From contig NZ_BJYS01000052.1 of NCBI RefSeq assembly GCF_007991635.1, positions 1-47,719 on the forward strand: DNA of 47,719 bases, in the 5' to 3' direction. Made by a program: the position numbers and the translations under genes. This DNA comes from Adhaeribacter aerolatus. Its GTDB lineage: Bacteria > Bacteroidota > Bacteroidia > Cytophagales > Hymenobacteraceae. How positions within the stretch are numbered: the first letter of the stretch is position 1; every line of letters starts with the position of its first letter. Below the pieces are notes generated by a model. The model searched no databases. It saw nothing but the letters and a program-made list of their open reading frames with translations, and was not told where the DNA came from. Of the stretch, positions 2,817 to 39,906 are shown one piece after another.

Positions 2817-3926
2817 TTGGATCATACGCATAAAAAGATTCCTCTTAAAATAGGTGTCTTAACTTTTCACCGTTGTATAAATTATGGTAGTTACTGGCAG
2901 GCCCGCTGTTTAACCGAAGGGCTGCAGGCCCGCGGACACCACGCCGAAATCCTCGACCATGATTCGCCGCGGGTAAACCAGACCGAATGGACTTGCGCCT
3001 TTCAACCGGTTTTGCCTACGTCCGTTCCAAAATCAGATTACCCGCTTTACCGCGAAAAAATCCTTAAGTTCTTCCAAATATTCCCCACGCTGCCTTTATC
3101 CAGGCGCTTTGATTTAGAAAATCCGGCCGCCATGGCAGAATACGATTTAGTAGTGGTGGGCAGCGATGAAGTTTGGAATTTATCGCATCCGTGGTTTGGG
3201 GGTTGCTCGTTGTTTTACGGCGATGGCCTGAAAACCGACCGTCTGATTTCTTACGCCGCTAGTTTTGGCAATTACGATGCCGCTTGGGGCATGGAACCCG
3301 CCTGGGCCGAAAAACTCCGGAAGTTTGACATGATTTCGGTAAGAGATGAAAACTCGCAGCTAATAATTAAAAATGCCCTTGGTTTTCAGCCCGAAATGGT
3401 GTTGGATCCGTGCCTGCAGTTTCCGGTAATACCGAACGAAAGAAGTTTAGACCATTTGCCGCAACAATACGTGGCCGTTTACGGGCACAACTTCACTGAG
3501 TCTTTTGCCCGCGAAATCCGGAACTGGGCCAGTACCCGCAAGCTTCCGCTGATTAGCATTGGCTACCGGAACGATTGGGCCGATGAGCAATGGCTTACCG
3601 CCGATCCGCACGATTTTGCGCAATTCATGGCTCGCTCTGAAGCGGTGGCCACCAACTTCTTCCACGGTTGCGTATTTGCCCTCCGTAATGCTAAACCCTT
3701 TGTTTGCGAATCGACACCTTACCGGCGGCATAAATTACAAGGCTTAATGACTAAAATTGGCGGCGAAAAACACTTGCTGCCGGAAGGCACCCCAACCGAA
3801 GTTTATGGTGCCCGGTTAAACGAACCTTTTGATGCCGAAATAACTCAGAAAATTGAGCGCCTGCGGCAAACTTCCAGTGCGTACCTCGATCGGGCTTTGG
3901 GTCTTAAACAACCGCAATTCGCATGA
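2817..3926 (+). CDS. Polysaccharide pyruvyl transferase family protein
   Basis: A 369-residue protein of the CsaB/WcaK type, which adds ketal pyruvate to sugars of surface polysaccharides. The N-terminus shows the family pattern ILTFH-like GVLTFHRCINYGSYWQA followed by 'DHDSPR'. The middle has VVVGSDEVWNLS (the family's GSDQxWN-like motif), then SYAASFG and ISVRDENS. The C-terminal half has the MVLDPCL and ATNFFHGCVFAL motifs. The start is TTG at 2817: the frame is closed by a stop at 2775-2777 and the next in-frame Met falls after about 100 residues, past the first conserved motif. The last four bases overlap the next gene (ATGA), so the two are co-translated. Pairing with an FrhB-like protein is common in capsule and exopolysaccharide loci. 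Confidence 0.88.
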   Translation: MDHTHKKIPLKIGVLTFHRCINYGSYWQARCLTEGLQARGHHAEILDHDSPRVNQTEWTCAFQPVLPTSVPKSDYPLYREKILKFFQIFPTLPLSRRFDLENPAAMAEYDLVVVGSDEVWNLSHPWFGGCSLFYGDGLKTDRLISYAASFGNYDAAWGMEPAWAEKLRKFDMISVRDENSQLIIKNALGFQPEMVLDPCLQFPVIPNERSLDHLPQQYVAVYGHNFTESFAREIRNWASTRKLPLISIGYRNDWADEQWLTADPHDFAQFMARSEAVATNFFHGCVFALRNAKPFVCESTPYRRHKLQGLMTKIGGEKHLLPEGTPTEVYGARLNEPFDAEITQKIERLRQTSSAYLDRALGLKQPQFA

Positions 3927-5308
3927 TAAAACCACTTAGCCCAAAAGATATTGTTTCGTCGGGTTTGTGTATCGGGTGCGGAAGCTGCGTAGCGCAAGCT
4001 AATTTGCCCGGTACCCAAATGAAGTTTGATGGTTACGGGGAATTAAAACCTACCGGCGCCTCGGCGTGGTACCAGCGCCCATCCGAAAGCTTTACCCGCA
4101 CCTGTCCTTTTTCGCCGGCCGCCAAAAACGAAGATTATTTAGCCACCAATCTTTACCCGCTGGCTAAACACCAGGATGCTGCCATTGGGCGCTTTCAAAC
4201 GGCTTACGTGGGTTACGTAGCCGAAGAAGAATTTCGGTTACAGGGCAGTTCGGGCGGCATGGTTACGTGGGTGGCTAATGAATTACTGCGGCAAGGCTTA
4301 ATCGATGGGGTTGCCCACGTGGTAGCGGCTAAAGATCCGCAAACCGAAGGCCGGTACTTTCACTACCGCATTTCGCGTACCGAAGCCGAAATCCAGGAAG
4401 GTGCCAAATCGCGTTATTACCCAATAGAATTAGCGCAAATATTGCAAACCATCCGGGAAGTGCCCGGCCGCTATGCTGTTATCGGCGTGCCTTGCTTTAT
4501 TAAAGCCGTGCAGTTGCTCCGGAACGAAGATCCACTCTTTATGGAACGCATTCCGTTTACGCTGGGGCTTTTTTGCGGTCACATGAAAAGCGCCCGTTTT
4601 ATCGAAAGTTTTGCCTGGCAAATGAATATTCCGGTAAAAGAAATTCAGCAGGTTGAATTTCGCCATAAAGATCCCAACCGTCCGGCCAACTGGTATAATG
4701 CCCAGCTCACTTTACGCGATGGCAGTACGGTTAACCGCGATTGGTGGCATTTGAAAGATGGCGATTGGGGCGCAGGCTTTTACATGAACTCGGCCTGCAA
4801 TTTCTGTGACGATGTGGTGGCCGAAACGGCTGATATTTCGTTTGGCGATGCCTGGGTTGAACCTTATTCTTCGGATGGTAAAGGTACCAACGTGGTGGTG
4901 GTTCGCTCGCCGGTAGTAGAACAACTGGTTGCCGCCGCTATTCAGGCCGGCCGCCTGCAATTAGATACCGTTGACAATAAATTTGTAGAACAAACGCAAG
5001 CGGCCGGCTTCCGGCAACGTCGCGAAGGTTTGGCTTACCGGCTTACCTGGTCGCGGCAGGGCGTACAGCCGCGTAAACGCGTCAGCCCCGATTCGCAAAC
5101 ACTAACCCGGCAACGTAAAATTATTTACCGGGTGCGTAGCTTTATTTCGGCGGGCAGCCACCGGGTATTCTCGTACGCACGCCGGTTGCAAAAACCACAA
5201 CTTTACTTTCTGTGGGCCCGCCTGGTAGCGGCAGTGTATCACGGTTTGGCTTACCACCAAGGCAATTTCAGCGAAATGAAAAAGCGTTTTGCGCAATTAA
5301 AAGGATAG
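3923..5308 (+). CDS. Coenzyme F420 hydrogenase/dehydrogenase beta-subunit family protein (FrhB-like)
   Basis: A 461-residue putative iron-sulfur flavoprotein. The N-terminus carries CxGCxxC (Cys16, Cys19, Cys22) and a further Cys-Pro at residue 61, a ferredoxin-like cluster site. The body holds the FrhB N- and C-domain motifs: GSSGGMVTW, GVPCFIKAVQLL, LGLFCGHMKS, and a second cluster signature CNFCDD followed by ADISFGDAW. About 90 residues after the conserved part are basic and low in recognised motifs. It overlaps the pyruvyl transferase gene by four bases. In glycan loci these two families occur as a pair; the redox reaction is unknown, and F420 itself is not expected in this phylum. A strong terminator follows at 5311-5337. 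Confidence 0.88.
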   Translation: MIKPLSPKDIVSSGLCIGCGSCVAQANLPGTQMKFDGYGELKPTGASAWYQRPSESFTRTCPFSPAAKNEDYLATNLYPLAKHQDAAIGRFQTAYVGYVAEEEFRLQGSSGGMVTWVANELLRQGLIDGVAHVVAAKDPQTEGRYFHYRISRTEAEIQEGAKSRYYPIELAQILQTIREVPGRYAVIGVPCFIKAVQLLRNEDPLFMERIPFTLGLFCGHMKSARFIESFAWQMNIPVKEIQQVEFRHKDPNRPANWYNAQLTLRDGSTVNRDWWHLKDGDWGAGFYMNSACNFCDDVVAETADISFGDAWVEPYSSDGKGTNVVVVRSPVVEQLVAAAIQAGRLQLDTVDNKFVEQTQAAGFRQRREGLAYRLTWSRQGVQPRKRVSPDSQTLTRQRKIIYRVRSFISAGSHRVFSYARRLQKPQLYFLWARLVAAVYHGLAYHQGNFSEMKKRFAQLKG

Positions 5309-5310
5309 GA

Positions 5311-5337
5311 AAAGGCAGGGACAAATCCTGCCTTTTT
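5311..5337 (+). terminator. Rho-independent terminator after the pyruvyl transferase operon
   Basis: A nine-base-pair stem (5311-5319 with 5327-5335), a seven-base loop and a T run lie three bases after the stop codon. It may also serve the minus-strand gene that ends at 5364. Confidence 0.85.
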
Positions 5338-5363
5338 GGTTCTACAATTTTAAACGAGAAGTA

Positions 5364-6317
5364 CTATTCGGGGGAATATTTTACCAAATAGTGAAGGCTG
5401 TTTTGGGCAAGGACTTCCAGCTCGCCTGCTACCCGCAGGATAAGGCTTTCCCAGTCGCCCGCACGTTCCTGCCGGAAGAGCCGCATAGTTGGATACCAGG
5501 GACTATCTTCCCGATTATCCATCCAGCGCCAATCGGCTTCGGCGTGCAGCAACGTCCAAACAGGTACCCCCAGCGCTCCGGCTAAATGAACCGGCATGGA
5601 ATCAACGGAAATTATTAAATCTAAACTGCTTACCACACGGGCAAACTCGTACAAACTAAACTCGCCGGGGTTAATGCCAAACCCGTTCTGCCACCCCGCC
5701 GCTTGGGCATTGGCCTGAAGAATATAAAGCTTAATGCCAGGAACATTGGCGAGCGGCGCCAGCAGTGGAAAAGGAACAGCGCGTTGCTCATTCCAATCAC
5801 CCGGTTTCCAAACCAGTCCAACGGCTAAATGCCCGTTTTCTGACGAGAGTGGTTGTGGCGGCACCTGCAAATACGGGATATCCAAAGGTATGGTATTCAG
5901 AGTAGTTCGGAAAATATGGGGCAATTCCATTATTTCCACATCTATGTCATACTCCACTTCGGGAGTGCCATCGTGCAGCGGCAGTAGTTCGTCAATGCCT
6001 TGTGCGGTTTCTAAAATTGGAATGAGTGGTGCCTGGGCCCATACAATTACTTTGGCAGCAATAGCTTTTAACAACGGTGCGTACCGGATAAACTGAATAG
6101 TATCGCCCAGGCCATGATAACAGCGTACCAGCACCCGCTTGCCTTCGAACGAACTACCGTCCCAAATATATTGAAGATGCCGCGGCCAGTGCCAGCAGGG
6201 CTGGCCGGCCCTAGATTGCAGCACCTTATCGCTAAAATGCCAGGCTTCCTCAAACGCACCACTCCGCATACAACGCATCCAATAATCTGACGTGTCCTCC
6301 TGCTTATCCTGACTCAT
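5364..6317 (-). CDS. Glycosyltransferase family 9-like protein
   Basis: A 317-residue protein resembling ADP-heptose:LPS heptosyltransferases and the GT domain of TPR-glycosyltransferase fusions. Residues around 65-85 (LVRCYHGLGDTIQFIRYAPL) form the N-terminal GLGD donor-domain motif. LAVGLVWKPGDW starts the second Rossmann-like domain, and the C-terminal part has the nucleotide-sugar-binding pattern LDLIISVDSMPVHLAGALG followed by PVWTLL. The first 50 residues look like a single remnant of a TPR-type helical repeat (ayWmRcmRsGaFeeAW). No signal peptide is visible, as expected for a cytoplasmic transferase. It is convergent with the pyruvyl transferase operon and upstream of nothing but the intergenic region; with the glycosidase gene behind it (65-base gap) it may form a minus-strand transcript. 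Confidence 0.8.
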   Translation of the reverse strand: MSQDKQEDTSDYWMRCMRSGAFEEAWHFSDKVLQSRAGQPCWHWPRHLQYIWDGSSFEGKRVLVRCYHGLGDTIQFIRYAPLLKAIAAKVIVWAQAPLIPILETAQGIDELLPLHDGTPEVEYDIDVEIMELPHIFRTTLNTIPLDIPYLQVPPQPLSSENGHLAVGLVWKPGDWNEQRAVPFPLLAPLANVPGIKLYILQANAQAAGWQNGFGINPGEFSLYEFARVVSSLDLIISVDSMPVHLAGALGVPVWTLLHAEADWRWMDNREDSPWYPTMRLFRQERAGDWESLILRVAGELEVLAQNSLHYLVKYSPE

Positions 6318-7267: not shown

Positions 7268-7636
7268 ATTTTAATTTGTGTCGGTTTATTCGCCGAATCA
7301 CCATACGGAGATTATGCCCGGCAGTTCGGCGCGGCGGCAAATATAAAATCATTCCTGGGTTAGAATCTCAAATAAAGCACCTCTCTTCTTTACTTCAACC
7401 GCTAAATAAAACCTTAATACTAAAATTATACCGTTCCGCTGGGTTAGATCAACAAAAGGTAAACTCCTGGCTTTACACCAAGTGTAAGCTTCCTTTAATT
7501 AGGACCAATTAGAAGTAAAGTAAAATATCCATTTTAAGGATAAAGCAAAAAGCTACTACTAACGCTATAGGTACAACGACATTTCCCGCAGCTACCTGGC
7601 TCTTCTGTAATTGAATTGGGTTATCACGTGCCCTTG
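7268..7636. other. Intergenic region with no supported gene
   Basis: The stretch between the glycosidase start and the IS relic holds a 78-codon plus-strand open frame at 7276-7512. It is rich in rare-looking codons and matches no family I know, so I do not call it. The glycosidase promoter on the minus strand should lie just above 7267. Confidence 0.35.
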
Positions 7637-7762
7637 CTAATCTTTTACCCAACAATGCAGGCTTCGGTAATCAACGCCACCTTCATCGGCCACTTTTATA
7701 TAGCTCATATCATTAGTGAGATACCTGGCAACAATACGCTCTTCTACGTCTTTTTCTTTCAT
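7637..7762 (-). pseudogene. IS3-like transposase OrfA fragment (41 codons)
   Basis: The minus-strand frame from ATG 7762 to TAG 7637 encodes 41 residues beginning MKEKDVEERIVARYL and ending RSLHCWVKD. This resembles the helix-turn-helix start of IS3/IS150-type OrfA proteins (pattern RYL..D.SY..LA.EYGV.YR.LHRW). It stops after the first helix-turn-helix and no OrfB frame follows, so it is a truncated relic rather than a working element. It lies at the left edge of the peptide-export island, which suggests past insertion activity there. Confidence 0.55.
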
Positions 7763-7778
7763 TTCTGTTAACTTTTTT

Positions 7779-7798
7779 GTCAACCTATATTTAGGACA
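7779..7798 (-). repeat. Probable IS terminal inverted repeat remnant
   Basis: On the minus strand, bases 7798 to 7779 read TGTCCTAAATATAGGTTGAC, beginning with TG as IS3-family ends do. The sequence sits 17 bases upstream of the transposase-fragment ATG, the spacing expected for the left end of such an element. No matching right end was found nearby. Confidence 0.45.
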
Positions 7799-7962
7799 AG
7801 ACAAAGATTAATTCTGATCAAAATCATAAACTACCTAAATTAAATTAACCATAAAAAATATTTAAAAGTCTGTTGACCTTTGAAAGAATACGCAATAAAT
7901 AAGTGTATGATGATTGTCTTTGCCCATAATTTACCAAGCGTTAAGGAAACCCCACAGATAAC

Positions 7963-8023
7963 TAAGGAGGAAGTACTACTCTTATGCCACTAGTTACTCG
8001 CTAGTATAATACCTTCCTCCTTA
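7963..8023. repeat. Stem-loop upstream of the dead precursor gene
   Basis: An 11-base perfect arm (7963-7973, TAAGGAGGAAG) pairs with 8013-8023, and inside it ACTAG (7989-7993) pairs with CTAGT (8001-8005). There is no T run after it, so it is not an obvious terminator. It may be a structured RNA, an operator, or a remnant of mobile DNA. Confidence 0.4.
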
Positions 8024-8082
8024 ACTTATAAAATAATTTTATATGATGCGCACTTAACTCACCTTTCAAACAACTTTAAAAA

Positions 8083-8193
8083 ATGTAAAATTAAGAACAA
8101 TAAGCTTTGATGGCATTAGATGCTACCGAGCTACCTAAAGACATGGGTATTGCTTCACTTTTCAGAAGGGCAACCTACTTAATTATGTTTTAA
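8083..8193 (+). pseudogene. Decayed third double-glycine-leader peptide gene
   Basis: From ATG 8083 the sequence aligns codon for codon, without indels, to the leader of the intact precursor at 8325. Codons 2, 4 and 7 have become TAA stops, while MALDATEL matches VALDAAEL. The ELQQVQGG processing site is lost (ELPKDMGI instead). The open part continues from an internal ATG at 8110 to TAA 8193 (27 codons), with no recognisable mature peptide. The AT-rich stretch before the ATG also resembles the intact copies. This is evidence of a once larger precursor family. Confidence 0.75.
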
Positions 8194-8324
8194 GTATTTA
8201 CGCTTTACCTGCTAAACCTTAATGGTAAAAAGTACTTAATCAAAATTGATAATTAACTCCTTCGATTCTCCCCCAAAGAAGCTTTAAAGTAGAATTAATA
8301 AATCAAAATTTAAAAATTAAAAAC

Positions 8325-8501
8325 ATGAAAAATTTAGAACAATTCGGCTTAGTGGCATTAGATGCTGCTGAATTACAACAAGTACAAGGTGGTAGCTTGA
8401 TAGATATAGCTATTGATTTTATAAAAGGTGCATTAGGCGGTGACAAAAAACCTATTGTAGTTGAGTGTCAAGGTCCTTGTAAAGTTACAATTCCACAGTA
8501 A
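8325..8501 (+). CDS. Double-glycine-leader secreted peptide precursor 1 (two-cysteine core)
   Basis: A 58-residue precursor. Residues 1-23 form a leader ending ELQQVQGG, the canonical pattern (ELxxVxGG) cut by C39 peptidases of bacteriocin exporters. The predicted mature peptide has 35 residues: an amphipathic hydrophobic start (LIDIAIDFIKGALGG) and a tail with CQGPC, whose two cysteines (core positions 25 and 29) could form a disulfide or be modified. Net charge is near zero, unlike most cationic bacteriocins. The leader is 21/23 identical to precursor 2 while the cores are unrelated. A hairpin terminator follows at 8509-8544. The matching exporter lies 1.8 kb downstream. Toxin, signal and other secreted roles are all possible; no modification enzyme is seen nearby. 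Confidence 0.85.
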   Translation: MKNLEQFGLVALDAAELQQVQGGSLIDIAIDFIKGALGGDKKPIVVECQGPCKVTIPQ

Positions 8502-8508
8502 TAAATTC

Positions 8509-8544
8509 AGAGAGAAGGTGGATATCTATCCGCCTTCTCTCTTT
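8509..8544 (+). terminator. Hairpin between the two precursor genes
   Basis: A 16-base-pair stem (8509-8524 with 8527-8542, one G-T pair) with a minimal loop lies eight bases after the stop of precursor 1 and is followed by TTT. It is either a terminator that isolates the first precursor or a partial terminator and mRNA stabiliser that raises precursor 1 over downstream genes. Confidence 0.75.
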
Positions 8545-8578
8545 AATTCTAACCTTATATAAAATAAAAATTAAAAAC

Positions 8579-8767
8579 ATGAAAAATTTAGAACAATTTG
8601 GCTTAGAAGTATTAGATGCTGCTGAGTTACAACAAGTACAAGGCGGAGTAACTGAAGGTGGCTGCATCCAACCTTTTCCTTTTCCTTTTCTACCTCACTA
8701 CCCTTATCCACCCTTTAACCCTACCCCGCCTTTTGATTATCCTACTCCTATACGTCCAGTTTTTTAA
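8579..8767 (+). CDS. Double-glycine-leader secreted peptide precursor 2 (proline/aromatic-rich core)
   Basis: A 62-residue precursor with the same 23-residue leader type ending ELQQVQGG. The predicted 39-residue core has 13 prolines and nine Phe/Tyr, in patterns such as PFPFPFLPHYPYPPF, and one cysteine at core position 6. It carries only one Arg, one His, one Glu and one Asp, so it is not a cationic proline-rich antimicrobial of the known insect or mammalian type. A second Gly-Gly at core positions 4-5 directly precedes the Cys and could be an alternative cut site. The 69-base leader region is 62/69 identical to precursor 1 at the DNA level, and the AT-rich sequence just upstream is also conserved, showing duplication followed by core replacement. 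I know no described peptide with this core. Confidence 0.85.
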   Translation: MKNLEQFGLEVLDAAELQQVQGGVTEGGCIQPFPFPFLPHYPYPPFNPTPPFDYPTPIRPVF

Positions 8768-8792
8768 ACTCGGCATGTCTTTCTTTAATTAC

Positions 8793-8853
8793 CAGAAGTA
8801 CATAAAATATTAACTACATATACGATAATTGCTGAATTGATTGTGTACTTCTG
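8793..8853. repeat. Inverted repeat between precursor 2 and the exporter genes
   Basis: CAGAAGTACA (8793-8802) is repeated as its exact reverse complement at 8844-8853, 41 bases apart. Together with the hairpin at 8886-8931 it lies in a 270-base gap before the adaptor gene, so it may form an mRNA structure or mark a regulator site. Confidence 0.45.
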
Positions 8854-8885
8854 CCTCACAAACCACAGGAGCATTTAACAAGATG

Positions 8886-8931
8886 CCTTTATAAATAGCT
8901 TGCTTAAAGAATATAAGTAGGCTATTTATAG
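8886..8931 (+). promoter_or_regulatory. Stem-loop upstream of the HlyD adaptor gene
   Basis: TATAAATAGC (8890-8899) pairs with GCTATTTATA (8921-8930), extended imperfectly by flanking C/G pairs, and is followed by a T-rich stretch. It could terminate or attenuate transcription from the precursor genes before the transporter genes. Confidence 0.45.
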
Positions 8932-9040
8932 GTTCTATTTTCTTAGGTGCTTTTGTCTTCTGTCCTTTTCAATACCTTAAAATTAGGATAAAAATAATTT
9001 AGGTTAATCTTATCGATCCACTGATTATATCTTGTTTGTT

Positions 9041-10207
9041 ATGCAAAATCAGCTTTATCCATCGGATGTGATTGAGTACAGCGCCGAAAGCTACTTAGGG
9101 ACTATTTCCACGCGTAGTCAGGCTATCTATGTTGCTATCCTGGGCGGAATAATCCTGGCCTTTCTCAGTTTGCCTTTCATCTCTATGGATGTGGTCGTAC
9201 GTACCAACGGTATTATTCGCCCTATAGCTGATAAAAGCGAACTTAAACCGTTTGTGGCCGGCACTATTGCTGCCGTGCTGGTCAAAGAGAATCAATACGT
9301 GCGCCGTGGGCAAGTAATGTTGCGGCTGCAAACTGATGGGTTAGATACCAGAATTCGGCTAAACCAAGCCCAGCAAGTACAAAAAAAACAGCACCTAAAA
9401 GACCTTTCCCGTCTGGTGGCTCTCGATACCACTTCTTTATTAAGAGCCAGAAAGTTACAATCTCCACTCTACCAACAGCAATATACCCAGTTTGTCCAGG
9501 TTCTTTCCCAACATCAAAATACGCTACGTAAGAAGCAGCAGGAACTTACCCTAACGCAAACTTTATTCCAGGAAAAAGTAGTAGCCAGGCAGGAATACGA
9601 TGATAAGCAATTTGAATTGCGCAGCAGCCGGTCGGCTTACCTGGCTGCCATGGAGCAACAGCTTAGCCAGTGGCAGGCTGATTTAACCACTCATACCTTT
9701 TCCTTCACCGAACTCCAAGCCCAGGAAAAGGAACTTCAGCAGCAGAAAGAATTTTATACAATTCGCGCCCCAATCGCGGGCACGTTGCAACAGTTTACGG
9801 GAAAGTACGCGGGCAGCTACTTACAGGGGGGCGAGATGGTTGGGGTAATTTCGCCAGATTCCGGATTAATTGCGGAGTGCTATGTCTCTCCCAAGGAGAT
9901 TGGTCAAATCCGACTAGGTATGCCAGCTACTTTCCAAATAGATGCATTTAATTATAATGAATGGGGGTTGTTAAAGGGGCGGGTAACGGACGTGGCCCAT
10001 GATGTGGTACTATTGAATAACCAGCCGGCTTTTAAAATCACCTGCCAATTAGATGACACCTACTTACAGCTACCCAATGGCTATCGGGGCAACCTGAAAA
10101 AAGGCATGACGCTACAGGCCCGATTTTCCTTAACCCAGCGGAGTCTCTTGCAACTGCTTTTCGACAAAGCGGATGACTGGTTAAATCCTTTACAGGCAAC
10201 ACAGTAA
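9041..10207 (+). CDS. HlyD-family membrane fusion protein of the peptide exporter
   Basis: A 388-residue periplasmic adaptor that links an inner-membrane ABC exporter to an outer-membrane channel. A short cytoplasmic start is followed by one membrane helix (about residues 27-46). Next come a lipoyl-like half (VRTNGIIRPI... FVAGTIAAVLVKENQYVRRGQVML), a long glutamine-rich coiled coil (about residues 105-235), the second lipoyl half (FYTIRAPIAGTLQQF) and a beta-barrel end. I chose the ATG at 9041 over an in-frame TTG nine bases upstream. It lies 100 bases before the peptidase-ABC gene and downstream of the two GG-leader genes, so it almost surely serves their export. A TolC-type outer-membrane partner is not encoded in the window. 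Confidence 0.9.
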   Translation: MQNQLYPSDVIEYSAESYLGTISTRSQAIYVAILGGIILAFLSLPFISMDVVVRTNGIIRPIADKSELKPFVAGTIAAVLVKENQYVRRGQVMLRLQTDGLDTRIRLNQAQQVQKKQHLKDLSRLVALDTTSLLRARKLQSPLYQQQYTQFVQVLSQHQNTLRKKQQELTLTQTLFQEKVVARQEYDDKQFELRSSRSAYLAAMEQQLSQWQADLTTHTFSFTELQAQEKELQQQKEFYTIRAPIAGTLQQFTGKYAGSYLQGGEMVGVISPDSGLIAECYVSPKEIGQIRLGMPATFQIDAFNYNEWGLLKGRVTDVAHDVVLLNNQPAFKITCQLDDTYLQLPNGYRGNLKKGMTLQARFSLTQRSLLQLLFDKADDWLNPLQATQ

Positions 10208-10307
10208 TATTTCTTTATCAGAATAGCTAAACAATCAATTCCTTCGCCAGCCATTCTTTTTAGCCCTGCCTACAAGAATACACCTTTCTTATTTAAAACC
10301 TTTAGCC

Positions 10308-12500
10308 ATGAAAAAGCATATCCAGGTTAAACAACACGATATCACCGACTGCGGCGCCGCTTGCCTGGCTTCGGTGGCGGCCCATTATCATTACCACTTA
10401 CCCCTTAGCCGTATCCGGCAGTATGCCTCTACCGATACGAAGGGAACCAATGTGCTGGGTATGATTGAAGCAGCCACCCGGTTAGGGTTTACAGCCAAAG
10501 GGGTAAGGGGTACTTTGGAGAGTCTCTTTAAAATTCCTCTTCCAGCCATTGTCCACGTCGTAGTTAAACAAGAACTCCACCATTTTATGGTTCTCTACCA
10601 GGTAAAGGCAAAGTACGTGTTGGTGATGGACCCAGGGGATGGGATAATGCACCGGTTAAGCCACGAAGCGTTTAAAAACCAATGGACCGGGGTTTTGATA
10701 TTACTATTGCCTGATACCCAGTTCAAGACAGGCAATGAGAAAACTTCGGTTCTCACCCGGTTCTGGCAGTTAGCCCAGCCCCATCAGGCCGTGTTGCTGC
10801 AAGCATTTGTAGGAGCAGTGCTTTATACCGTGCTGGGTCTCTCCACCTCTATCTACGTGCAAAAAACAGTTGACTATGTACTAGTAGGGGGCAACAAAAA
10901 CTTGCTTAATTTAATGAGTGTAGTCATGATTTTGTTACTGTTGCTGCAACTGTTGATTGGCACCATCAAAAGTATTTTCGCCTTGAAAACCGGCCAGCAA
11001 ATGGATGCCCAGTTAATTCTGGGCTATTACAAGCATTTGCTGACCCTGCCCCAAACTTTCTTTGACAGCATGCGGGTCGGGGAGATTATCTCCCGGATAA
11101 ATGATGCCGTTAAAATCAGAACTTTTATTAATGATGCCGCGCTAAACTTAGTTGTCAATGTTTTTATTGTGCTCTTTTCCTTTGGGCTGATGTTTACTTA
11201 CTACTGGAAACTGGCCCTGATGATGCTGATTATTATTCCCTTCTACGGGCTGATTTATTTTATTACCAATAAGCTCAACAAGAAAGTACAACGAAAGCTG
11301 ATGGAAGATTCTGCGGAGTTGCAAACCCAACTGGTAGAATCGTTGAATACCATGGCCACTATTAAAAGGTTTGGCCTCGAATCTTATGCCAATTTAAAAA
11401 CCGAAACAAGTTTTATCAAGCTGCTGAAAACCATTTTTCAGGCTACCCAAAATGCGGTCTATTTAGGAACTGGCGCGGAGTTTATCACCAGGTTGTTTAC
11501 CATTCTTATTCTGTGGGCCGGCGCTTACTCGGTGCTGAATCATACCCTTACGGCAGGAGAATTGCTTTCCTTTTACGCGTTAATCGGCTATTTTACCGGT
11601 CCGGTCAACAGTTTAATTGGCATGAATAAAACCCTGCAGGATGCCTTAATTGCCGCTGACCGGTTGTTCGAAATCATGGACCTGGAGCGCGAAGAAATAG
11701 AGAACAAGATTGACTTAAAGCGGGAGATGATTGCGGATATCCATTTTCGGGAGGTGGCATTCCGGTATGGTTCCAGGGCCACCGTATTTGAAAACCTGAA
11801 CCTTACTATTGCCCAAGGCAAGGTTACAGCAATAGTGGGCGAAAGTGGCTCCGGCAAAACAACGCTGATGGCCTTGCTGCAGAACATCTACCCTTTAACT
11901 AGCGGGCATATCACCATTGGCAACTACGACCTCAAGCATATTAGTACGACTAGTTTAAGGTCCCTGGTAAGTGTAGTACCACAGAACATTGATTTGTTTG
12001 CAGGCAATGTTATCGAAAATATTGCGGTGGGGGTTTTTAAACCGGACATGGAAAAGGTCTTGCGGATTTGTGAAGCCTTGGGGATTGCTGCCTTTGTAGA
12101 AAAGCTTCCAAATGGTTTTAACACGTATCTGGGGGAAAATGGAGCCACCTTATCGGGCGGTCAAAAACAACGGATAGCCATTGCCCGAGCCCTCTACCAG
12201 GAACCCGAAATACTCATTTTAGATGAGGCAACTTCCTCGCTGGATTCCCATTCGGAGCAATATGTGCAGTCATCTATTCAGCAATTAAGAAAAGCCCAGA
12301 AAACCGTTATTCTTATTGCCCATCGCCTGAGTACAGTGATGCAGGCCGACCAGATTATTGTACTGGAGGAAGGAAAACTGGTGGAAGCAGGCACCCATGA
12401 AGAATTGCTGCTTACCGGTAAATACTACTACAAGCTTTGGGCGCAGCAATTCCGCTTTGCCAAACCAGATTTTGATTTGGTAAGTAGTAATGGGCATTAA
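10308..12500 (+). CDS. Peptidase-containing ABC transporter (C39 peptidase, TMD, NBD)
   Basis: A 730-residue bacteriocin-type exporter (PCAT) that cuts GG leaders in the cytoplasm and exports the mature peptide. Residues 1-130 are a C39 peptidase: Gln9, catalytic Cys15 in DITDCGAAC, His92 in ELHHFMVL and Asp108 in VMDPGDG are all present, so it should be active. A six-helix ABC exporter domain follows (about 160-450). The nucleotide-binding domain has Walker A GESGSGKTT, signature LSGGQKQR and Walker B ILILDEATSSLD. It follows the HlyD-like gene by 100 bases. Only one exporter is present for at least two precursors, consistent with their shared leader. No gene for lanthipeptide, thiopeptide or radical-SAM modification is seen next to it. 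Confidence 0.96.
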   Translation: MKKHIQVKQHDITDCGAACLASVAAHYHYHLPLSRIRQYASTDTKGTNVLGMIEAATRLGFTAKGVRGTLESLFKIPLPAIVHVVVKQELHHFMVLYQVKAKYVLVMDPGDGIMHRLSHEAFKNQWTGVLILLLPDTQFKTGNEKTSVLTRFWQLAQPHQAVLLQAFVGAVLYTVLGLSTSIYVQKTVDYVLVGGNKNLLNLMSVVMILLLLLQLLIGTIKSIFALKTGQQMDAQLILGYYKHLLTLPQTFFDSMRVGEIISRINDAVKIRTFINDAALNLVVNVFIVLFSFGLMFTYYWKLALMMLIIIPFYGLIYFITNKLNKKVQRKLMEDSAELQTQLVESLNTMATIKRFGLESYANLKTETSFIKLLKTIFQATQNAVYLGTGAEFITRLFTILILWAGAYSVLNHTLTAGELLSFYALIGYFTGPVNSLIGMNKTLQDALIAADRLFEIMDLEREEIENKIDLKREMIADIHFREVAFRYGSRATVFENLNLTIAQGKVTAIVGESGSGKTTLMALLQNIYPLTSGHITIGNYDLKHISTTSLRSLVSVVPQNIDLFAGNVIENIAVGVFKPDMEKVLRICEALGIAAFVEKLPNGFNTYLGENGATLSGGQKQRIAIARALYQEPEILILDEATSSLDSHSEQYVQSSIQQLRKAQKTVILIAHRLSTVMQADQIIVLEEGKLVEAGTHEELLLTGKYYYKLWAQQFRFAKPDFDLVSSNGH

Positions 12501-12680
12501 GGATGCTTACCATTTCTTCTTAAGTTAATGATATCTAAATTATACTTGATTATAGAATTCAATTCTGGTTTTTAAGTGGGATATACTTAAAAATGAAAGA
12601 CAGTAAATTCTATTATCCCCTATTTTCATCAAATCTTCATTTTAGGATTTTACATTGACATTATTAAATATAACAAGGCA

Positions 12681-12926
12681 ATGTCGGAGGTGAATAAAGG
12701 TTATTATATGTCAGTTTGCCATCGTTGCCAGGACGAAACTCCTACCCTACGGTCCTCCTGGTTTAATACGCAAATGTTATGTCCGGCTTGTTGTGCCGAA
12801 GAGGCGGTTCATCCCCTCTATACACACGCCCAACAGGTGGAATTTGCTAAAATTCAAACCGGTGATTATCGGTTCGTCGGAATAGGCTTACCTGATGATC
12901 TACAAAGAAAATATCCCTTTAAATAA
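12681..12926 (+). CDS. Small zinc-ribbon-like protein of unknown function
   Basis: An 81-residue protein with CHRC (Cys13, Cys16) and CPAC (Cys34, Cys37), a likely zinc ribbon, followed by AHP-like VHPLYTHAQQVE and a C-terminal GIGLPDDL motif. Similar short proteins with two CxxC pairs and a GIG.P.DL tail occur in many bacteria and plasmids without known function. A second possible start is the ATG at 12708 (residue 10). It lies 180 bases after the exporter on the same strand. An immunity or accessory role for the peptide system is possible but it does not resemble known immunity proteins, which are usually basic or membrane-bound. Confidence 0.6.
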   Translation: MSEVNKGYYMSVCHRCQDETPTLRSSWFNTQMLCPACCAEEAVHPLYTHAQQVEFAKIQTGDYRFVGIGLPDDLQRKYPFK

Positions 12927-12970
12927 AACTTTAACCTATAACCTGTTAAGTATTTTCAGGAACCTACCAT

Positions 12971-37654: not shown

Positions 37655-38722
37655 TTACTGTTTTATTTTCCGGAGTTTTTCCATCGATAAAACTCTGATG
37701 GTGCTGCCTTCTTTCTGAATCAATTTTTCGCTTTTGAAGTCGGCGAGTGTGCGGCTAATTGTTTCATTGGCGGTACCCACCATCGAGGCCAGGTCTTCCC
37801 GGGAAACTTTTATTTCGCAAGTTTCGGTGGTGGCACCATGATATTTTTCTGCCAGGTTAATTAAGGCATCGGCCACTCTTTTACGAACCGAGTTGTAAGC
37901 TAATTTAAGTAGTTGTTCCTGCTTCTCCTGAATATTGCCCGATAATAATTGAATAAATTTATTCGCAATTCCCGCATCTTTAAACAAAAGCGCATTAAAC
38001 TCATTTTTGGGAATAAGATAAAGTTCTGCGGCATCCAACGCCTCCGCATTTTCAGCGTAAGGCATATTTAAAAGTACCGATTCGTAGCCTAAAAAATCGC
38101 CGGGGGTAAAAATTCCCGAAATAATTTCCCGGCCATTCTGATAAGTCATATAGGTACGTACCTGGCCACTTTTTACCAGATAAACCGTAACGGCGTGGTC
38201 GCCTTCTAAGTAAATATTCTGCTTCTTTTTGTAAGGATGCAATCGGCTGTTACCCGAAAGTTCGTTTAATAGTTTTGCCGACTTAGCCTCATTGCGTAAA
38301 CCCTCGAAAGATGTTGCATTGCCGACATTGTGGATGGCCCTTCCACGCTTTTGCAAGCGGGTTTCAATGGCGTTTAACAATTCTAAATCATTAAAGGGTT
38401 TGGTGAGGTAATCATCAGCTCCCATTTCCATGCCTTTGCGCATATCGGCCCTTTCGGATTTGGCGGTTAAAAATATAAAAGGAATATCTACGGTACTTTC
38501 GTTTTTACGGAGCAAATACAAAACGCTATACCCATCCATTTCGGGCATCATAATATCACACAAAATAATATCGGGCGGGTTGGCTTGCGCCAGTTCAACT
38601 CCTTTTTTACCATTTTCTGCCGTATATACCGTGAAGTCGGCCATCGCCAGAATTTCGGAGGTACTTTCTCTGATATCCTGATTGTCTTCTATGAGCAAAA
38701 CCGTCTTTTTAGCTAAACTCAT
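37655..38722 (-). CDS. Response regulator fused to Crp/Fnr-type regulator (REC-cNMP-HTH)
   Basis: A 355-residue transcription regulator. Residues 1-125 are a CheY-like receiver: acidic Glu12/Asp13, phospho-acceptor Asp56 in DIILCDIMMPEMDG, Thr86 and Lys108. A cyclic-nucleotide-binding-type beta-roll follows (about 155-270, with GDHAVTVYLVKSGQVRTYM and FTPGDFLGYESVLL). The C-terminal winged helix has GTANETISRTLADF: the E-x2-SR spacing equals that of FNR and FixK, which read TTGAT half-sites. The gene overlaps the kinase gene by ATGA and is translated after it, so the two form one signalling pair. The fusion would let phosphorylation directly drive a Crp/Fnr-like regulator, joining the roles of FixJ and FixK. 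Confidence 0.9.
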   Translation of the reverse strand: MSLAKKTVLLIEDNQDIRESTSEILAMADFTVYTAENGKKGVELAQANPPDIILCDIMMPEMDGYSVLYLLRKNESTVDIPFIFLTAKSERADMRKGMEMGADDYLTKPFNDLELLNAIETRLQKRGRAIHNVGNATSFEGLRNEAKSAKLLNELSGNSRLHPYKKKQNIYLEGDHAVTVYLVKSGQVRTYMTYQNGREIISGIFTPGDFLGYESVLLNMPYAENAEALDAAELYLIPKNEFNALLFKDAGIANKFIQLLSGNIQEKQEQLLKLAYNSVRKRVADALINLAEKYHGATTETCEIKVSREDLASMVGTANETISRTLADFKSEKLIQKEGSTIRVLSMEKLRKIKQ

Positions 38723-39906
38723 AACTTCTTAAAAATTAAAGACACGGAAGTGCCTTGATGTTGGGCACTGTGGCAAACTACTTTGCCCCCCATTAATTCT
38801 ATGTAACGTTTAACAATATTTAATCCCAGGCCGGTACCCGGAATATTGCCCGTATTATGGGCCCGGAAAAATGGCTCAAATAAGTTTTTCTGGTCTTCTG
38901 CCGGGATGCCGATACCATTATCCTTTACGGTAATGCATACTTCGCCGTCGTCAACTTCGGTATTAAACTCGATAAAAGTGTTCTCGCCGGAGTACTTTAT
39001 AGCGTTGGATACCAGGTTAATAGCTGCATTTTTTAATAGGTTTGGATCCAGGTATACCTGGCTGATAGAACCGGTGTGCTGATAGACAATAGTTTGGTTT
39101 TCTTTAGAAATCAATTGCATTTCTTCGATAAGATCCTCCGAAAACTTTACCAGATCAAAATGCTGTAATAACATTTGAGTTTTTCCAGCTTCCAGTTTTT
39201 CCAGCGATAAAAAATCATTCAGAATTCCGGTTAGGTGGGCAACAGAATTTTTTATTTTACCGGTGTGTTTGTGAATATTTTCAGGGTCTTTTTTCTGCAG
39301 GTATTTATCTATTAATAAAGCGGAAAGCTGTATGGAGCTTAGCGGCGTTCGGAATTCGTGCGAGGCCATGGAAACAAACCGGGTTTTAAGCAAGTTTAAC
39401 TCCTGTTGTTGTTCCATGGCGCGAGCAGCTTCATCTCTGGCTTTTTCCAATTCCGAGATTAAATGCTCTAAATTCTGTGTGCGGTCTTTAATTTTTCCCT
39501 CCAGTTCTTCGGTATATTTCTTTAATTTTTCTTCTGCTGCTTTTTCTTTGGATAGGTCATGAATAAATCCGGTATATATTACCCGGTTTTCATATAACAC
39601 TTCGCTTACGGCCAATCGAAAAGGGAAAGTAGTACCATTCTTTCTTAAGCCTAAAACCTCGCGGCCAATTCCAAATATTCTATTTTCACCGGTATCTTGG
39701 TGCCGGTGCAGGTAACTGTCATGCGCACCTCGGTCGGGTTCCGGCATCAAGGTACAAATCTTCTTGCCTTTCAGTTCTTCTTCTTCATAGCCAAAGAGTT
39801 TCAGGGCCGCCGGATTCATGGTTTCGATCAATCCCCGGTAGTCTATGGTAATAATGCCGTCGATGGCAGTATTAAAAATAGCATGTAAAAGTTTTAAACT
39901 ATCCAT
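38719..39906 (-). CDS. FixL-like PAS sensor histidine kinase, putative heme oxygen sensor
   Basis: A 395-residue soluble kinase without membrane helices. The PAS domain (1-118) closely follows FixL: MPEPDRGAHDSYLHRH, then RIFGIGREVLGLRKNGTTFP. His62 sits where the FixL heme ligand His200 is, and Arg68 and Arg82 sit at the places of Arg206 and Arg220 that control oxygen binding. A coiled coil (about 120-170) leads to the H-box SHEFRTPLSS (His183) and the ATPase domain (NLVSNAIKYS, VKDNGIGIP, GTGLGLNIVKRY). It is the first gene of a two-gene operon with the REC-Crp regulator. Oxygen sensing is inferred from the three conserved residues; a redox or NO role is also possible. Confidence 0.88.
   Translation of the reverse strand: MDSLKLLHAIFNTAIDGIITIDYRGLIETMNPAALKLFGYEEEELKGKKICTLMPEPDRGAHDSYLHRHQDTGENRIFGIGREVLGLRKNGTTFPFRLAVSEVLYENRVIYTGFIHDLSKEKAAEEKLKKYTEELEGKIKDRTQNLEHLISELEKARDEAARAMEQQQELNLLKTRFVSMASHEFRTPLSSIQLSALLIDKYLQKKDPENIHKHTGKIKNSVAHLTGILNDFLSLEKLEAGKTQMLLQHFDLVKFSEDLIEEMQLISKENQTIVYQHTGSISQVYLDPNLLKNAAINLVSNAIKYSGENTFIEFNTEVDDGEVCITVKDNGIGIPAEDQKNLFEPFFRAHNTGNIPGTGLGLNIVKRYIELMGGKVVCHSAQHQGTSVSLIFKKL

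Follow-up and report, generated by a model that had tools for sequence, protein, structure and literature searches.

A double-glycine peptide-export locus of Adhaeribacter aerolatus with two dissimilar precursors, a candidate class IIb-like bacteriocin pair

In Adhaeribacter aerolatus (contig NZ_BJYS01000052.1), a decayed leader copy, two short double-glycine precursors (P1 and P2), an HlyD-type adaptor, and a C39 peptidase-ABC exporter follow one another in a locus that sequence comparison assigns to a widespread kind of bacterial peptide-export locus, the cores themselves being unmatched in our searches. The locus probably represents an accessory pair of unmodified bacteriocin peptides resembling class IIb; antagonism is the function we infer, and the peptides could also serve in signalling. 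This reading draws on a TIGR01193 exporter whose best PDB matches are bacteriocin transporters, on the strand bias of the leader pattern in related loci, and on the content of those loci, namely HlyD, multiple precursors, precursors passing a class IIb cut-off, and CAAX-protease-like genes. The presence of the same leader with different cores and of one dead copy points in the same direction. In what follows, the window is the whole stretch of 47,719 nucleotides that was analysed.

Precursors, Adaptor, and Exporter

Precursor P1 (8325 to 8501, plus strand) encodes 58 aa, divided into a 23-aa leader and a 35-aa core, and precursor P2 (8579 to 8767, plus strand) encodes 62 aa, in which a near-identical leader precedes a 39-aa core. 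The 23-residue leader, MKNLEQFGL..LDAAELQQVQGG, ends in L-x3-E-L-x2-V-x-GG, and at the DNA level the two precursors share 93% identity across an 82-nt stretch that takes in the leader and the 14 nt preceding the start codon. The decayed copy (8069 to 8150, plus strand) aligns without gaps to the P1 leader region at 67% identity across that stretch; stops follow its start codon directly, and no GG stands in register. Applied to the short frames of the whole window in both orientations, a hand-written double-glycine pattern retrieved exactly P1 and P2, with none on the other strand. These results confirm the two intact precursors and the dead one reported in the initial annotation, along with the adaptor and exporter placed after them.

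The P1 core, with a net charge of 0, starts with a hydrophobic segment whose hydrophobic moment lies above that of 96% of its own shuffles, and it carries one GxxxG (GALGG) and a CQGPC. A single-sequence structure model of P1, of low confidence (mean pLDDT 55.6), places a helix at residues 25–36 and strands at residues 45–48 and 52–55 about the CQGPC turn, from which a disulfide hairpin might be guessed. The disulfide-linked role suggested at first is possible within P1 through CQGPC, whereas P2 has a single Cys. The P2 core is 33% Pro and 23% aromatic, lacks a GxxxG, and has a net charge of −1; the earlier statement that neither core is cationic is therefore correct. Its proline content compares with a maximum of 25% and a mean of 3% among 187 exporter-strand frames of the relatives described below, and its Gly plus Ala content is 5%, against a median of 23% in the relatives' cores.

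P1 and P2 passed no family cut-off in NCBIfam or Pfam. Their weak matches were to ComC, Bacteriocin_IIc, and class IIb models and mostly reflect leader signal; for the class IIb model TIGR03949, P1 and P2 scored 13.3 and 13.9 bits, under the cut-off of 21.5. The mature peptides had been described as resembling none known, and the cores indeed matched nothing in the searches made, which used samples of each group and a first-pass search that may lose short peptides, so that absence is not proof. In 200 family genomes, 390 order genomes, plasmids, and viral contigs, the P1 core retrieved nothing beyond P1 and P2 of the window itself, and in 200 family genomes, 395 class genomes, plasmids, and viral contigs no homologue of the P2 core was found beyond weak matches. 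These comprised four in family genomes, each with internal stops, and two in class genomes (L111 and L112); the stronger of these two, L111, was rejected, as it falls in a different frame of a region whose long open frames resemble cell-wall genes. Against 160 cores of related loci, a set in which the plus strand was taken as the exporter strand (wrong for L105, L106, and L108) and three duplicate loci were kept, the best scores of 32 for P1 and 44 for P2 fell within those of 20 shuffles (25–36 and 28–56, respectively). Kinship of P2 with proline-rich Aquimarina precursors (L066, L051, L063, and L065), considered for a shared PPF stretch, was rejected because the score of 44 lies inside the shuffle range. 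A profile of P2 and four of these precursors run on 385 class genomes was also set aside, having returned two double-glycine frames with unrelated cores (L127 and L131) and four noise-like matches.

The exporter (10308 to 12500, plus strand; 730 aa) contains the PF03412, PF00664, and PF00005 domains and scored 537.3 bits against TIGR01193, a peptide cleavage/export ABC transporter family with a curated cut-off of 523.85. Among solved structures it matches best to two of the bacteriocin transporter PCAT1, 4ry2 and 8vp3, and it was aligned to 4ry2. Gln-9, Cys-15, His-92, and Asp-108, the C39 catalytic residues, are present at the positions first given for them, and the ABC motifs are intact, with Walker A at 511, LSGGQ at 615, and Walker B at 635. 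The HlyD-type adaptor (9041 to 10207, plus strand) spans 388 aa from its ATG, an alternative TTG start at 9032 being possible; it scored over the cut-off of PF13437 (HlyD_3) and reached an E value of 7.2e-40 with TIGR01843, yet stayed under the cut-off of that family.

Two long hairpins were absent from the initial annotation. The terminator-like hairpin between P1 and P2 (8509 to 8542, plus strand) has 15 pairs and a T-rich tail (−25.3 kcal/mol, z −6.84), and the one between P2 and HlyD (8888 to 8932, plus strand) has 19 pairs (z −4.01). The scan returned five terminator-like sites, no more than in shuffles (mean 5.4); the 15 and 19 pairs of the two locus hairpins compare with 5 or 6 in the other three sites. 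Most adjacent precursors are not separated by so strong a hairpin: in the relatives, 8 of 65 such pairs have an intergenic fold of −15 kcal/mol or lower. This layout suggests that P1 may be produced in excess over P2.

Related Exporter Loci

The comparison covered the best 80 of 326 exporter relatives in named genomes, with 61–69% identity, all labelled Bacteroidota or Balneolota apart from a single MAG that carries the label Algicola. The 200 family genomes contributed 8 further exporter loci besides the window; the exporters of L103, L104, and L107 are identical to ones from named genomes, and dropping these duplicates left 85 distinct relative loci, counted by true exporter strand. All 85 have an HlyD on the strand of the exporter, at most 1.5 kb away in 83. 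A hand-written leader pattern, untrained but written after sight of the first listing of the relatives' frames, was found in 51 of the 80 named loci, and each of the 116 short frames that it marked shares the strand of the exporter, with 0 on the opposite one. A trained leader profile, partly circular in that it was trained on these same loci, gave 162 frames on the same strand and 2 on the opposite strand of the 85 loci at a score of at least 18. By this profile, at least two precursors occur in 44 of the 85 loci, one in 17, and none in 24, the last group being due in part to cut contigs.

The 162 cores have a median length of 35 and a median net charge of −1, which P1 and P2 fit in size and charge. 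Since 131 of them are at or below zero, a lack of positive charge is no argument against a bacteriocin, and the earlier use of the non-cationic cores as a pointer away from bacteriocins fails, such charges being typical of the group. A GxxxG is present in 88 of the 162 cores. Six of ten hand-picked relatives' precursors passed the TIGR03949 cut-off (22.9, 25.7, 29.8, 26.5, 25.1, and 31.6 bits), and none of the ten passed a Pfam cut-off. The system had originally been presented as undescribed. This was not borne out, as the best 80 named relatives show an exporter, adaptor, and leader of the same type, again with a multi-precursor layout, and a new kind of system is also contradicted by the TIGR01193 assignment and by these six class IIb passes; what stands of that interpretation is the association of the precursors with a C39 exporter. 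An exporter tree gives the window a long branch and no close sister, within a set of weak support; the tree does not demonstrate transfer.

CAAX-protease-like genes occur in 33 of the 85 loci, and 42 of 42 such genes lie on the exporter strand; three representatives scored over the PF02517 cut-off, and the remainder were called by a custom-built profile. In several loci (L014, L016, L017, L020, and L055), the gene sits between the precursors and the exporter. The sections of PMC9298176 used here describe such proteins as often tied to bacteriocin immunity, with processing and receptor roles too, and report one tested case with no immunity role.

Another recurrent neighbour of the exporters is a small protein, about 105 aa long (45 ORFs in 38 of the 85 loci, for example, L083 2388–2702). 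One scanned representative has a winged-helix look, with 24.4 bits for HTH_11, just under the cut-off of 25, and the protein may be a regulator of these exporters; by eye, none is present around the locus in the window. In Dyadobacter and Mucilaginibacter loci (L048, L076, L079, L080, L088, L092, and L093, around 4400–5600), the precursors are Gly/Ser-rich and number one to four per locus; most are nearly identical copies in tandem, and they contrast with the hydrophobic cores of other loci. A GDPR-x-x-DN-x-FP core motif is common to precursors of Aquimarina and a Bacteroidia MAG (L066 13035–13417, L051 14847–15017, L063 15030–15200, and L065 15098–15268), which form a separate small double-glycine family near the same exporter type.

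Genomic Setting

The locus lies in a stretch without a blastn match in the flanks of the nearest of the genus-mates examined, G019 (7346 to 12961, referred to as the island), which also contains a transposase scrap and a zinc-ribbon-like ORF; matches to G019 extend up to 7345 and begin again from 12962. The two G019 flanks are on different contigs, so no empty site is shown. The exporter was missing from the seven other genus genomes examined (E 1e-150; one genome 78% complete). The transposase scrap (7637 to 7804, minus strand) scored 20.4 bits for PF01527, under the cut-off of 24.1.

Relatives of the zinc-ribbon-like ORF (12681 to 12926) occur in 6 of the 8 genomes of the genus, its own included, and for this reason the ORF is not counted as part of the locus. 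It was considered as an immunity gene and rejected, given this distribution and the absence of relatives in the exporter loci examined. By eye, the island ORFs offered no candidate for an adjacent immunity gene, which leaves room for a small membrane protein of an unknown family. The window contains no PF02517 gene, and the two PF02517 matches of the genome are on other contigs (C5 and C8).

In agreement with the initial annotation, no adjacent modification enzyme was recognised among the listed ORFs of the island, where the Pfam scan covered those named in the analysis. LANC_like proteins are encoded on contigs C6 and C2, so modification from a distance is possible. The C6 region (L007, 8302–11517 and 11710–11940) is likely a class II lanthipeptide cluster of the same genome, with a LanM-like enzyme (DUF4135 and LANC_like), a C39 exporter, an HlyD-like frame, and, beside these, a frame of 76 aa that bears a GG and ends in a Cys-rich stretch. 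On C2 (L006, 8530–14170), a second C39 exporter has a LANC_like protein and an HlyD-like frame as neighbours, with a small Cys-rich frame upstream (7598–7744). Elsewhere in the window (2817–5308), a polysaccharide pyruvyl transferase adjoins an FrhB/FdhB-type iron-sulfur protein, a pair typical of surface-polysaccharide loci.

Functional Interpretation

If expressed as a class IIb-like pair, P1 and P2 would be made with their common double-glycine leader, which the C39 domain of the exporter would recognise and cut after GG. The ABC unit and HlyD, together with an outer-membrane channel encoded elsewhere, would then move the 35- and 39-residue cores out of the cell, where close relatives of the producer would be their targets. 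P1 probably enters or disturbs a membrane via its hydrophobic N-terminal segment, with the CQGPC hairpin behind, and P2, as an extended proline/aromatic chain, would probably be the binding partner. Duplication of the leader, followed by core replacement, could have given rise to P1, P2, and the dead copy. Counting against a class IIb-like pair are the unmet bacteriocin cut-offs, the core scores within shuffles, the lack of PF02517 in the window, the low Gly plus Ala of P2, and the 24 relative loci without a precursor.

Comparison with class IIb systems (TIGR03949, lactobin A/cerein 7B) disclosed a double-glycine leader, a TIGR01193 C39-ABC exporter, an adaptor, and adjacent short precursors in common, and P1 and P2 display the class IIb trait of two adjacent double-glycine precursors. 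P1 shares one GxxxG, a motif found in many class IIb peptides according to the portion of PMC5380434 drawn on here. In contrast, neither precursor reaches the cut-off, P2 is proline/aromatic-rich without GxxxG, no immunity gene is adjacent, and the host is Gram-negative.

The bacteroidetocins, for which a class IIf has been proposed (PMC6671954), share the Bacteroidota host, a double-glycine leader, a transporter with a double-glycine peptidase, and a similar core size. As described in the accessible part of that paper, they have a leader of 15–16 aa and at least 2 Cys (four in A and B, whose 42-aa cores have charges of +6 and +2), and their loci encode a TM protein and mostly also a thiol oxidoreductase. 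The present locus departs from them in leader length, Cys number, and both accessory proteins, having a 23-aa leader, uncharged to slightly acidic cores with 2 and 1 Cys, HlyD, and no TM protein or thiol oxidoreductase recognised adjacent. The same part of PMC6671954 reports that the producers apparently lack immunity proteins and inhibit themselves, so a missing immunity gene is not disqualifying here. Genome mining with IIBacFinder indicates class II bacteriocin potential in Bacteroidota, and the unmodified class II bacteriocins it reports there are of the same kind of locus, as far as the excerpt of PMC12648078 used here goes.

Among the matches listed in our search of the open-access literature, no title was recognised as describing this locus type in Bacteroidota outside Bacteroidales, and no experiments on this locus or near relatives were found. 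Locally unusual are the unmatched cores, the proline content of P2, the lack of an adjacent immunity gene, the scores of P1 and P2 under cut-offs, and the absence of the exporter from genus-mates. The locus adds two unmatched cores to a large Bacteroidota peptide-export class that is little-tested as far as the searches showed. With a single exporter and cores of opposite chemistry behind a common leader, it offers a tractable case both for the core diversity tolerated by a single C39 exporter and for producer survival without an adjacent immunity gene. We also entertain, as a speculation with perhaps one chance in a handful, that P2 is a new bacteriocin partner type, nearly uncharged, proline/aromatic-rich, and extended, which would be co-exported with a helix-plus-hairpin P1 and act at the envelope, with target-side immunity and no dedicated immunity gene; such a partner would differ from membrane-inserting class IIb pairs and from arginine-rich proline antimicrobial peptides.

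Peptide signalling, in which one or both peptides would be exported as ComC/BlpC-like pheromones reporting population density, appears rather improbable. P1 nearly reaches the cut-off for ComC (PF03047, 19.0 bits against 20.4), which would accord with it, but the match spans residues 1–24, that is, the leader, which is common to many exported peptides, and this weakens the case. The lack of an adjacent immunity gene and the winged-helix-like small protein frequent among relatives are also consistent with signalling; against it, no sensor kinase or response regulator was seen by eye beside the locus among the listed ORFs, the nearest such-like frames (37655–39906) being 25 kb off.

A smaller probability still is given to surface-held contact killing of the Cdz kind, whereby exported peptides would stick to the producer surface and act on touching cells. 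Cdz of Caulobacter, as presented in the part of PMC5380434 used here, is a type I secreted, Gram-negative system of two small bacteriocin-like proteins with class IIb likeness, and the hydrophobic N-terminal segment of P1 with its one GxxxG, as well as the aromatic, proline-rich P2, could suit such a mode. However, the extended glycine zippers of Cdz are found in neither core, there being at most one GxxxG, in P1; the precursors of 58 and 62 aa are smaller than CdzC (86) and CdzD (84); and no counterpart of the immunity protein CdzI was seen.

The class IIb-like pair is also preferred over the least probable explanation, a decaying locus without present use, with a dead precursor, no immunity gene left, and a P2 core arising from repeat slippage or a frameshift: the dead leader copy, the nearby transposase scrap (under its family cut-off), the exporter missing from genus-mates, and a short CCTTTT repeat inside P2 would agree with decay, but the exporter, adaptor, and both leaders are intact. 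Absolute fit of the P2 frame to the codon usage of the window is poor, at −23.4, which could likewise reflect decay, and two stop-containing frames over P2 each outscore it on one measure. GC3 and codon scores nonetheless make a frameshift origin of the P2 core less likely, as the GC3 of the P2 frame (0.23) is near that of P1 (0.17), against 0.58 and a codon score of −28.7 in the rival open frame.
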